Positions 24,038 to 28,900 of a DNA stretch of 32,877 nucleotides are shown one piece after another; the stretch's first letter is position 1, and each line of letters starts with the position of its first letter. The notes beneath the pieces were generated by a model. The model was not told where the DNA came from and did not search any database. It saw only the letters and a list, made by a program, of their open reading frames with translations. Made by a program: the position numbers and the translations under genes. This stretch comes from Microcaldota archaeon. Its GTDB lineage: Archaea; Micrarchaeota; Micrarchaeia; Micrarchaeales; Micrarchaeaceae. Location of the stretch: positions 1-32,877 of the forward strand of contig JAGWHI010000011.1 in the NCBI GenBank assembly GCA_028866905.1, given 5' to 3'.

Positions 24038-24574
24038 TCACGAGACTTTCGCTCCGCAGCTCGGGCAGAAGTTCGCGCCTGCCTGCAGGCTTGCGCCGCA
24101 CTTGATGCAGAATCTTGCATTAGACTGCTGCGCAGGAGCCTGGTTTTGGCGGGGCGAACTGATGTCGTCCCTTCCCTGTAGCCTCCTGCTTATGTAATCG
24201 GCAAGCCTCTTGGCGTCGTCCTTGCGCAGCCCGTCTATCTCCCCTTCCTCCCTGCCGTTCTTGAGCAGGCCTACGTCCTTGTCGTACCCCGCAACCCTGA
24301 CGAACACCGAGGAGGAGATCATCCCGGACTCGATGCGTACGCTGGTTATCTGCGAGTATGGTATAACCTCATAGTCCTTTCTTATCCCAAGATTTGCCTT
24401 GTTGACTATTATGAGGCGCTTGTCGGTTGCGAATACGCTGGTCGGCATGACAGGGGAGCCGCCCGGGCCTATCCTGCGCTGCTCCACGTGGATTGCGACC
24501 TTCTCATCATCCCATATTATCCCGTTCAGCAGCTTCATTTCGTTCTGGTCCACTTGGTCTAGGTCTTTGGCCAT
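24038..24574 (-). CDS. PH-like domain protein with C-terminal zinc ribbon
   Basis: A 178-residue paralogue of the proteins at 1586-2077 and 24579-25145. PH-like core: VEQRRIGPGGSPVMPTSVFA, TDKRLIIVNKANLGIRKDYE and VIPYSQITSVRIESGMISSS. A linker rich in Gln, Pro and Ala follows, then a zinc ribbon, FCIKCGASLQAGANFCPSCG. The VIPYSQITSVR pattern (structural strand of bPH domains) is shared with the next gene. No membrane segment. The start codon lies 4 nt from the stop of the upstream paralogue, so both belong to one operon, probably after tandem duplication. Function unknown. Confidence 0.78.
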   Translation of the reverse strand: MAKDLDQVDQNEMKLLNGIIWDDEKVAIHVEQRRIGPGGSPVMPTSVFATDKRLIIVNKANLGIRKDYEVIPYSQITSVRIESGMISSSVFVRVAGYDKDVGLLKNGREEGEIDGLRKDDAKRLADYISRRLQGRDDISSPRQNQAPAQQSNARFCIKCGASLQAGANFCPSCGAKVS

Positions 24575-24578
24575 ATGA

Positions 24579-25145
24579 TCACGCCTTTATCTCCTTCGCC
24601 TCCTCTTGCTTCTGCGCCATGACAACCGGGTAGCCGCAGTTATTGCAGTACTTGGAGCCGGCGGCGTTCCTCCAGCCGCAGTTGCTGCAGTAAATCTGGC
24701 CCTTCCGGGACACCTGGGATTCCTCCTCGGCCGGCCTCCTCTCATGCGCCGCGTTCACGGCCTTGGTTATGAAGTCGGCAAGCTCGAAAGCCGGCTGATG
24801 CGGCAGGCCGTGCAGGTCGCCCTTCTCCGACTCCCGCGCGGACGCGTGCGCAGAGGTGTCGCCGAAACCCTGTATGCGAATCAGTATCGATGATGCCAGT
24901 ATGCCCCTCTCCATGCGTACACTGGCGATCTGGTTGTAAGGTATGACCTCATACTCCTTCCTTATACCGAAGGTGGTCCTGTTCATTATTATGAGGCGCT
25001 TGTCTGTGGCTATCACTACCTTCGGGGTCGTGAGCGACCCGCGCACCAGCCAGTTCCTGCTCTGCTGAACGTACATCTTTATGGTCTCCCCGGGCCACAG
25101 CACTGTGCTGGCCACGAACCTCAGGGTGTTGTACTTCAGTGACAT
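24579..25145 (-). CDS. PH-like domain protein with zinc ribbon, upstream tandem paralogue
   Basis: A 188-residue protein of the same family: YVQQSRNWLVRGSLTTPKVV, ATDKRLIIMNRTTFGIRKEY, VIPYNQIASVRMERGILASS, then a zinc ribbon, YCSNCGWRNAAGSKYCNNCG, with a short tail. It differs from its neighbour in the IGPGG segment (NWLVRG). A TATA-like gatatttatcc on the minus strand about 30 nt upstream of ATG 25145 marks the operon promoter. Family function is unknown; the combination suggests a scaffold or adaptor. Confidence 0.78.
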   Translation of the reverse strand: MSLKYNTLRFVASTVLWPGETIKMYVQQSRNWLVRGSLTTPKVVIATDKRLIIMNRTTFGIRKEYEVIPYNQIASVRMERGILASSILIRIQGFGDTSAHASARESEKGDLHGLPHQPAFELADFITKAVNAAHERRPAEEESQVSRKGQIYCSNCGWRNAAGSKYCNNCGYPVVMAQKQEEAKEIKA

Positions 25146-26667: not shown

Positions 26668-26712
26668 ATTTTTATATCTATTAATTCCATATTAATATGG
26701 TGTTAATATGGT
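26668..26712 (+). promoter_or_regulatory. Promoter and operator of the antitoxin-toxin module
   Basis: TATA-like gatttttata (26667-26676) is followed by a perfect 14-bp palindrome ccatattaatatgg (26687-26700). A 10-bp direct repeat ttaatatggt (26692-26701 and 26703-26712), with an 11-bp period, has its second copy overlapping the antitoxin ATG at 26708. Repeated boxes one helical turn apart over the start site are typical of ribbon-helix-helix antitoxin autoregulation; binding here is inference. Confidence 0.55.
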
Positions 26713-26950
26713 AAAGGCATTAGTGACGATAAGCGCTCAGGCTAACAGGATTTTAAACATAGTAAAAGCCGAGTATGGGCTCAGGGATAAATCGCAGGCC
26801 ATAGACAAAATGGCAGCAGATTACGAAGAGTTCGTCTTCGAACCGATGGTCAAGGCTTCTTACATAAGGAAACTCAAGAGCATTAAGAAGGAGAGGTTGA
26901 TAGACGTGGGAACCCTGAAGGACTTCAGGAAGAGATACAAAATGGATTAG
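26708..26950 (+). CDS. Antitoxin of a RelE-type module (DUF2683-like)
   Basis: An 80-residue protein with an N-terminal strand VKALVTISAQANRILNIVKA and second helix KSQAIDKMAADYEE, fitting a ribbon-helix-helix antitoxin of the archaeal DUF2683 type. The basic C-terminal helices KASYIRKLKSIKKERLI and LKDFRKRYKMD probably contact the toxin. It is the first gene of a two-gene operon, with the toxin gene 9 nt downstream. The module is visibly more AT-rich than the flanking genes and lies between two identical 26-bp repeats, consistent with recent insertion. Confidence 0.72.
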   Translation: MVKALVTISAQANRILNIVKAEYGLRDKSQAIDKMAADYEEFVFEPMVKASYIRKLKSIKKERLIDVGTLKDFRKRYKMD

Positions 26951-26959
26951 GGTGGTCCG

Positions 26960-27229
26960 GTGGAATCTCCCTACAACATAAAATTAAGGGACCACGTAGA
27001 TAAGCTCTTTGCAAAGATGGCGAAAAGGGAGACGCGAAATCTGGAGAGGATATATTCAAAACTTGAGGAGATATGCATTGATCCAAAGAGGTTTAAACCG
27101 CTAGTGGCCCCCATGCAGGGCTTGAGAAGGGTGCATGTACTGGGAAGCTTTGTGCTAACCTATTCGATAGACGAACCTTCGCATACGGTATGGATTGAAG
27201 ATTTTGCCCACCACGATGAGATATATTGA
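26960..27229 (+). CDS. RelE/ParE-type toxin
   Basis: An 89-residue RelE-like protein with a GTG start preceded by a GGTGGT ribosome-binding sequence. The pattern is helix-helix-strands: YNIKLRDHVDKLFAKMAKRE, RIYSKLEEICIDPKRFKPLV, then MQGLRRVHVLGSFVLTYSID and HTVWIEDFAHHDEIY. The DFAHHDEIY ending is characteristic of archaeal RelE toxins paired with DUF2683. It probably acts as a ribosome-dependent mRNA endonuclease, with conserved basic residues (Arg, His) available for catalysis. It follows the antitoxin by 9 nt and sits just before the right 26-bp repeat. Confidence 0.78.
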   Translation: MESPYNIKLRDHVDKLFAKMAKRETRNLERIYSKLEEICIDPKRFKPLVAPMQGLRRVHVLGSFVLTYSIDEPSHTVWIEDFAHHDEIY

Positions 27230-27305: not shown

Positions 27306-27380
27306 GCTCTGATCGTCTAGCACGGTCAAGGACACGGCCCTCTCAAGGCTGAAACTCGGGTTCAAATCCCGATCAGAGCA
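27306..27380 (+). tRNA. tRNA-Glu (anticodon CUC)
   Basis: A complete intron-less tRNA of 75 nt. Acceptor GCTCTGA pairs with TCAGAGC, discriminator A, CCA not encoded. The anticodon arm CGGCC-CTCTCAA-GGCTG puts CTC at 27342-27344, reading GAG. T arm TCGGG-TTCAAAT-CCCGA. An AT-rich caaaatta about 20 nt upstream is a possible promoter element. It separates the repeat-bounded toxin-antitoxin module from the radical SAM operon, whose stop codon is 22 nt past the tRNA's end on the opposite strand. Confidence 0.92.
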
Positions 27381-27402
27381 CCTCTTTAACAGGAATAGCC
27401 TT

Positions 27403-28434
27403 TTACCTTTTATTTGTGAGGCGTTCCCTATTAATTTGTATAAGCCGGGTGTCTGGGGTTTTATCCTTGTCCCTAAAGATATTCAGGATGCACTGACCTC
27501 CAGCAATATCCAGATTCATGAAACGTTCCTTTGAGCGCGACCATATCTCGCGCCAGGACTCGGTATAGAGATTTCCTAGTGGAACATTCCTTATGGTCAC
27601 GCACGGAGTGACAGTACCATCGACAAATACTCCGGACCTAAGCAATCCTGCGGTGCAGGTTTTAAACCCGTATGTGTCTATAAGCGGCTGATTGTCGCCC
27701 AGTGCAAGAGTGCATTCCTCAACCACTCCGACAATCTTTACGTCCTTCCTTCCCGCTTCGCTTGCCAGCCTATTGACGCCATTGTATATCCCGACCATCG
27801 ACTCGGAGCTTAATCTCAATGCGTTATACGAATCGTAAGTCATGCTTATCGTAGGCTGCAGCGGCTCTAGGTTTATCGAATCCAGGCATTTGTAATTGGA
27901 TAGCAAACCCCTCGCAGTATCCATAACGTCGCTGGCGTTGATTGATGTAAGGACAATCCCTACAGAGAATTGCACACCGTGGCGCTCAAGAGCATCAATG
28001 CCTTTAATGGTCTCTCTTGTCTTGCCCCTGCTCTTATCGTTCACCTCAGGATTCAGGCTATCCAGTGAAACCTGAAGGGACAACCCCTTATCCTTTTCTG
28101 TCAGCAGTTTAAGCCTTCTCCATTTATCGTCGCCTAATCCGTCCAGCAAGGTACCGTTTGTGCTCATACCTACGCCGCTTTTGAAGGTTGAATCGGCACG
28201 CTCCAGTACGTCTATTATGTCCCTCCTTATGAACGGCTCGCCGCCCAGTATTATAATTTCGAATGGGTCCACTTCAGCCTGTGTCTTCCTGAACAAGAAA
28301 TCTAAATCCTCAAGCTCCGGATGTTTGTTCGTGGACGACTTCCAATAGCAGCCTACGCATTCTAGATTACAGGTACTTGTTACCTCGAACTCCACCCTAA
28401 ATGGTAGGTCCGGAAGTATCATCTGGTTGGCCAT
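27403..28434 (-). CDS. Radical SAM peptide maturase with partial SPASM/Twitch region
   Basis: A 343-residue radical SAM enzyme. The 4Fe-4S/SAM motif is CNLECVGC (Cys22, Cys26, Cys29, CX3CX2C). GGEP at 64-67, MSTNGTLL and LSLQVSLDS are the usual SAM-binding and barrel strands. The C-terminal part has CTAGLLRSGVFVDGTVTPC (260-278), PLGNLYTESWREIW and a final Cys315. This is the shape of a SPASM/Twitch region but with fewer Cys than a full two-cluster SPASM, so probably one auxiliary cluster. This group modifies ribosomal peptides. It starts 4 nt after the stop of the Trp-repeat protein, with ggtgtgag as ribosome-binding sequence, so that protein is its likely substrate. Confidence 0.85.
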   Translation of the reverse strand: MANQMILPDLPFRVEFEVTSTCNLECVGCYWKSSTNKHPELEDLDFLFRKTQAEVDPFEIIILGGEPFIRRDIIDVLERADSTFKSGVGMSTNGTLLDGLGDDKWRRLKLLTEKDKGLSLQVSLDSLNPEVNDKSRGKTRETIKGIDALERHGVQFSVGIVLTSINASDVMDTARGLLSNYKCLDSINLEPLQPTISMTYDSYNALRLSSESMVGIYNGVNRLASEAGRKDVKIVGVVEECTLALGDNQPLIDTYGFKTCTAGLLRSGVFVDGTVTPCVTIRNVPLGNLYTESWREIWSRSKERFMNLDIAGGQCILNIFRDKDKTPDTRLIQINRERLTNKR

Positions 28435-28438
28435 GCAC

Positions 28439-28900
28439 TCACACCTTTCGGTATAAAGCCATCAGTATCTCCGGATTATCCTTGTTTATCTCACTAAGCG
28501 AGGTATCGAGCAGGGAACTCAATAGAGACAGCGTATTGTTATCCGCATAGAATATCACGCCGCTTTCTAATTCGTGCACGAATCCGAATTTCTCGTTGTC
28601 CTGCCTTATTTTTATTATGGTACGTAATTTGGTTTCTCCGTTTATCTCGGTATTGCCAATAGGGCCCATCTTATCGCGCCATTGGTCTGTCCAACCTCCC
28701 CCATCATGCCACGAGCTGGATTGTGTCCACCCGAACTGGTCATGCCACGGATTGGATTGGTCCCATGCTACCGGATCATTTTGTGCTTTGGAGGTGCCGT
28801 CCTTCTTGGGAGACGCAAACTCCTGGCTTGCACTTTTTGAGAACGGTATCAACACTATGTTCGTAGGATTTTTACGTGATTCCGCCCCCTTTTCTGGCAT
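28439..28900 (-). CDS. Putative RiPP precursor: Trp-x-(Asp/Gln) hexapeptide repeats plus RRE-like domain
   Basis: A 153-residue protein, likely substrate of the adjacent radical SAM enzyme. Residues 1-45 form a polar leader. Residues 46-76 are the repeat core: Trp at 46, 52, 58, 64 and 70 (exact spacing 6) and 74. Each starts a triplet W-D-Q, W-H-D, W-T-Q, W-H-D, W-T-D or W-R-D, and spacers are rich in Gly, Ser, Asn and Gln. Residues 88-153 resemble a PqqD/MftB-type peptide-recognition (RRE) domain: KIRQDNEKFGFVHELESGVI, then ADNNTLSLLSSLLD. No signal peptide and no CxxC. The gene starts the operon, with a TATA box about 55 nt upstream. The RRE assignment is from pattern only. Confidence 0.7.
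   Translation of the reverse strand: MPEKGAESRKNPTNIVLIPFSKSASQEFASPKKDGTSKAQNDPVAWDQSNPWHDQFGWTQSSSWHDGGGWTDQWRDKMGPIGNTEINGETKLRTIIKIRQDNEKFGFVHELESGVIFYADNNTLSLLSSLLDTSLSEINKDNPEILMALYRKV
28673..28765 (-). other. Core with six Trp-x-(Asp/Gln) triplets
   Basis: Codons 46-76 of the putative precursor. Five tryptophans recur every 18 bases and a sixth after 12. The third residue of each triplet is Asp (four times) or Gln (twice), the type of residue used as X3 in triceptide three-residue cyclophanes. DNA in this stretch is locally repetitive (catgccacg occurs twice on the plus strand), so the array may have grown by duplication. Crosslinking is a prediction. Confidence 0.65.

Follow-up and report, generated by a model that had tools for sequence, protein, structure and literature searches.

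The window (the whole analysed stretch of 32,877 nucleotides from a Microcaldota archaeon) carries two adjacent genes on its minus strand, verified as open reading frames: a precursor gene (P0001, 28439–28900) for a putative substrate protein of 153 amino acids and a gene for a radical SAM/SPASM peptide maturase of 343 amino acids (27403–28434). All features within these genes that are described below lie on the same strand. Between the stop codon of the precursor and the ATG of the enzyme there are 4 nt (28435–28438, from the coordinates of both ORFs), exactly the spacing given by a sequence-only reading of this DNA, and the genes are likely to belong to the same transcription unit. A divergent Sua5 gene flanks the pair upstream, and a tRNA-Glu and a ParE-like gene pair are located downstream on the opposite strand. 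At 26708–27229 (plus strand), the ParE-like toxin gene (PF05016 over cut-off) is preceded by a small gene weakly matching DUF2683, with which it likely forms a toxin-antitoxin pair, and the tRNA-Glu (27306–27382) follows this pair and converges on the radical SAM gene. Elsewhere in the window, two related proteins are encoded in tandem (24038–25145, minus strand); the one tested (24579–25145) combines a PH domain of the bacterial type with a zinc ribbon at its C-terminus. The archaeal SSU rRNA model is matched over its full length in the genome (1393 bits), which is only supportive of an archaeal origin because this model also matches bacteria.

The sequence-only reading had called the larger gene a radical SAM maturase. 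The encoded protein (P0002) is indeed over the Pfam cut-offs for Radical_SAM (8.6e-16) and SPASM (1.4e-6), and its fold neighbours are of the peptide-maturase type: the closest PDB folds to its AlphaFold model (pLDDT 75, pTM 0.79) are SuiB and SkfB with E about 1e-13 in Foldseek, and the peptide epimerase EpeE ranks lower. The CxxxCxxC motif (C22, C26, C29; 28348–28371) is invariant in all aligned orthologues. The SPASM region is shortened (C241, C260, C278, C315; 27490–27714). C260, C278 and C315 are invariant and a further cysteine is found 15–19 residues before C260 in every orthologue; the CxxC...C stretch of a second auxiliary cluster is absent, from which we infer that one auxiliary cluster at most can be expected. 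Of 64 NCBIfam models, the 25 best contain no curated family whose cut-off was reached. The best ones include the RiPP-type maturases ScmE, WgkB and the mycofactocin maturase, all far under their cut-offs (ScmE, the best, with 82 of 400 bits). With no model near its cut-off among these best 25 of 64, the enzyme does not fall in a characterised sequence family of three-residue cyclophane forming enzymes (3-CyFEs).

Alignment and modelling divide the precursor into a conserved N-terminal motif ending in QE(F/Y), a disordered core of triplets and a C-terminal domain roughly 60 residues long. The structure model, for which only 9 sequences were available (mean pLDDT 60), places a strand at residues 17–21, disorder at residues 24–83 and a confident domain (block pLDDT 83–89) thereafter. 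A Pfam match of the precursor to PagL was under the cut-off and was rejected. The N-terminal motif VLIPFSKSASQEF (residues 16–28; 28817–28855), of which residues 17–21 make up the modelled beta strand, aligns as LIPFSKSASQEF in the window and as LIPYVSRADQEF, IRLYARSADQEF, LIPFSRGSDQEF, LIPYARSASQEY and IVPYSHTADSEF in relatives and is a candidate recognition (leader) element. The C-terminal domain (28442–28630) is a candidate RiPP recognition element (RRE) fused in cis. Its modelled part (residues 96–148) has strands at 96–100, 105–110 and 116–120 followed by helices at 121–129, 135–141 and 143–148, the beta3-alpha3 order by which RREs are defined in the literature (PMC12710340). Neither Pfam, Foldseek against the PDB nor hhalign against ten PqqD-family domains detected PqqD/RRE homology. 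We therefore refer to the domain as RRE-like and not as an RRE. Since all other strands of the model lie in this domain, the N-terminal strand 17–21 most likely adds to its sheet, as inferred from the prediction without inspection of the coordinates.

The core (residues 46–76; 28673–28765), which is modelled as disordered, contains six W-x-(D/Q) triplets. Tryptophan at residues 46, 52, 58, 64, 70 and 74, each followed two residues later by Asp or Gln in the triplets WDQ, WHD, WTQ, WHD, WTD and WRD, was read correctly from the sequence alone. For the statistics, we set the boundaries of the core ourselves, within the stretch that separates the QEF/QEY motif from the C-terminal domain. In the window core, D, N or Q stands at +2 of 6/7 aromatic residues, a value reached in 0.055% of shuffles of that core. 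In the pooled cores, from which near-duplicate loci were excluded, this holds for 37/45 aromatics compared to 10.5 expected; none of 20,000 shuffles reached 37, and the counts at all other offsets from -4 to +6 range from 8 to 16. Tryptophan is nearly restricted to the cores, with 37 residues inside and 1 outside.

What the relatives conserve is the aromatic-x-(D/N/Q) triplet: its third residue is D, N or Q, its middle residue is free, and the distance from one triplet to the next varies. The period of six that the sequence-only reading had emphasised is present in the window but, unlike the +2 rule, is not kept in relatives and hence appears incidental. The triplet alphabet differs by clade. 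Only W-x-Q is used in two loci of genome G241 (a and c) and in G243 (WEQ W(T/N)Q WDQ WVQ WDQ), W/Y-x-N/D in G207 (WDN WDN YKD YVN YKD) and G021 (WHN WGD WND WAD YDN YTD), and mainly W-x-N/D in G211 (WDD WHD WDN WDN WGN YGD WDN) and G076 (WDN WDD WDN WDN); the core of G001 reads YED WKD WGQ.

Among 301 genomes of the phylum, the enzyme profile matched 8 genomes at 10 loci (E below 1e-140). The precursor profile matched precisely these genomes and loci, and neither gene occurs as an orphan. The precursor, which has homologues at 10/10 enzyme loci and nowhere else in these genomes, is located directly upstream of every enzyme on the same strand. The expectation that the two genes always occur together was thus borne out throughout the phylum genomes, and conservation of the triplets was largely so: at least three aromatic-x-(D/N/Q) triplets occur at 9/10 loci, whereas L015 is degenerate. 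This locus (G241:C20:18232-19670) is a second-type paralogue of G241 with an apparently intact enzyme and a single triplet, YSN, in the core. The enzymes of the relatives are 43–53% identical to the window enzyme and retain all cluster cysteines. No other small gene common to the loci was found.

The distribution is patchy, covering 7/126 genera in two families of one order, and the enzyme tree leaves vertical descent versus transfer unresolved. Nearly identical copies of the locus exist in two species of one genus (L010, G243:C18; L014, G241:C20), and G241 has three loci; recent duplication, transfer or a binning artefact could each account for these two observations. A single-sequence precursor search of genome contigs gave no match, and the corresponding search with the enzyme alignment returned only remote radical SAM proteins among the matches listed. 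Triplet-rich small ORFs near these remote radical SAM matches and among viral matches included no convincing relative. Searches for enzyme orthologues, without internal positive control, were negative in the phylum of L016, titled Nanoarchaeota (371 genomes), and in that of L019, titled Thermoplasmatota (293 genomes). Two further candidate homologues were rejected, L002, a match in the window's own genome that proved to be an unrelated reductase region, and L005.

The sequence-only reading had also stated that no transporter or protease lies in the operon. This is correct for the window pair, but an adjacent accessory gene of one of two types was found at 9/9 related loci, so that the absence of a protease may not apply to the system as a whole. 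A protein with an HExxH motif is encoded directly downstream on the same strand at L007, L008 and L013; at L015 a shorter HExxH protein is adjacent and at L011 the HExxH gene is convergent. The members of this family (L007, L008, L013, L015, L011/L134) have about 285 amino acids, are poorly annotated without a Pfam match over cut-off and are often encoded stand-alone, and the main family is present in 24/301 genomes, also in the absence of the system. The HExxH protein could be a peptidase or an oxidative cleaving enzyme. An HExxH enzyme of the latter kind has recently been shown in another RiPP pathway (PMC12636437). At the four remaining related loci the adjacent accessory gene is of a second type, unrelated to the first. 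It lies in the operon at L012 and is divergent at L009, L010 and L014, and its proteins are placed in one family by P0024 and P0025 (E 1e-16). These proteins (L012:531-1463, L010:5-928, L232-L239) are unannotated, have about 310 amino acids and share a C-terminal GxGH-E motif. Next to the intact gene of this second type, G241 and G243 also carry a decayed additional copy interrupted by stops. Both accessory families are absent from the window genome, which is 90% complete.

Gene pairing at 10/10 loci, triplets at 9/10 loci and a peptide-maturase-type enzyme support the proposal of a RiPP substrate with its maturase, and pairing, motif conservation and enzyme class are demonstrated. We consider it probable that the locus represents a minimal triceptide-like RiPP system, in which the 153-residue protein is the substrate of a dedicated maturase that makes a C-C cyclophane at each triplet, although the chemistry is inferred. 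Known 3-CyFEs connect a ring carbon of an aromatic residue (Trp, Phe, Tyr or His) with the C-beta of residue i+2, for which Asn, Asp, Arg, Ser and Ala serve as acceptors. At i, i+2, Trp is paired with Asn, Asp or Arg, Phe with Asn or Ser, and Tyr with Asp, and Gln is not among the listed third-residue acceptors (PMC11002830). The locus meets the triceptide criteria of a precursor with repeated aromatic-X2-X3 beside the enzyme gene and of a radical SAM enzyme with a (shortened) SPASM domain. We commit to the cyclophane because the motif fits the known i, i+2 rule of 3-CyFEs and the enzyme class fits as well. Counting against it are the position of the enzyme outside curated families, the unconfirmed RRE, Gln as an unlisted acceptor, the loss of triplets at L015 and the single auxiliary cluster.

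In the proposed mechanism, the substrate would be kept on the enzyme by its N-terminal motif together with its C-terminal domain. The domain would probably serve as a recognition element in cis, taking up the motif as an additional beta strand, and the disordered core would be fed into the active site. The 5'-deoxyadenosyl radical would take a C-beta hydrogen from the third residue (Asp, Asn or Gln) of each triplet, and the resulting carbon radical could close on the aromatic ring to give a three-residue cyclophane, with a predicted loss of 2 Da per triplet and up to six such rings in the window protein. Trimming or other processing of the product may fall to the adjacent accessory protein in most relatives, a step that would be missing from the window genome or provided there by an unlinked gene. 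Bond type, bond number, mode of recognition, processing and fate of the product are all inferred, and the rod-like shape foreseen in the sequence-only reading remains a prediction. A more specific proposal, that a few ultra-small archaea possess an archaeal RiPP class with a self-carried recognition domain, an enzyme with one auxiliary cluster, up to six consecutive cyclophanes including Trp-to-Gln and an internal core perhaps left joined to its folded domain, is possible but remains tentative.

The chemistry is also where the explanation that survives best besides cyclophane formation comes in. Radical SAM peptide maturases perform several chemistries and sequence leaves this enzyme outside the characterised groups, so the same pair might install another modification at the triplets, namely epimerisation, another bond at Asp/Asn/Gln or an aromatic-heteroatom bond. 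EpeE is found in the Foldseek list, albeit lower down. However, epimerases need no aromatic residue at a fixed -2 position, and the conserved W/Y together with a free middle residue observed here is the known signature of cyclophanes (PMC11002830). A darobactin-type ether joins Trp to Trp, whereas the Trp-Trp spacing varies in these cores. We regard another modification as unlikely. The core could further be an unmodified binding or metal-binding repeat next to an enzyme that acts on another substrate or makes a cofactor, as Trp/Asp-rich repeats can serve as binding modules and no measurement was made; the exact co-occurrence in 8/301 genomes at 10 loci with immediate adjacency, the lack of another small gene common to the loci and the predicted disorder of the core render this very improbable. 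That the small protein is merely an RRE- or chaperone-like partner of a substrate encoded elsewhere, as the resemblance of its modelled C-terminal domain to a recognition domain might suggest by analogy to PqqD for PqqE, seems the least probable reading of all, given that the conserved triplets reside in the same protein and that the loci share no other small gene.

Overall, the triceptide-like substrate–maturase pair is probably a new archaeal branch of natural-product systems that staple an aromatic residue to a near neighbour. In the literature searched, which did not extend to subscription sources, we found neither a description of this system nor a triceptide from archaea or DPANN; antiSMASH RiPP regions have been reported from DPANN genomes without such detail (PMC12153355). 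If the proposal is correct, cyclophane-type stapling of peptides reaches archaea with small genomes, for which there are hardly any descriptions of dedicated peptide natural products. The two-gene pair of an enzyme and a naturally self-tethered substrate, with third residues that depend on the clade (N/D versus Q), would then be useful for studies of acceptor choice. As these organisms are thought to depend on hosts, one might speculate that the product has a role in contacts with a host or neighbour, or in competition with them.

Parts of the system resemble several known ones. SuiB (streptide) and SkfB (sporulation killing factor) are the closest solved folds of the enzyme, but identity is only 15–20% and those maturases make other bonds. 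ScmE of the SynChlorMet cassette (TIGR04250) is the best NCBIfam match among the best 25 of 64 models, extending over 290 residues with 82 bits; the cut-off is 400 bits and the cassette is not seen here. The modelled residues 96–148 share the beta3-alpha3 order with PqqD-like RREs (PMC12710340), but this likeness lacks support from sequence and fold searches, and here it is the substrate, not the enzyme, that carries the domain. With the cyanobacterial cyclophane RiPPs GrrA/OscA1 (TIGR04260) the cores have in common repeated W-x-N/D in a Gly-rich context. The core of G211 matches this model weakly (E 0.08, far below cut-off) and none of the three proteins compared exceeds its cut-off (P0014, 13.5 of 31 bits; P0004 and P0001, no match); outside the core there is no relation. 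The nearest parallel is with the triceptide systems of the 3-CyFEs XncB, OscB, MscB and YxdB, which likewise combine a SPASM-type radical SAM enzyme with an adjacent precursor of repeated aromatic-x-x, Asn/Asp being the third residue in OscB and YxdB substrates (PMC11002830). The archaeal system differs from these in an enzyme that matches no curated family and has a SPASM domain cut to one auxiliary cluster, in its small-genome archaeal host, and in a substrate with an internal core, possibly Gln as third residue and a folded C-terminal domain of its own.
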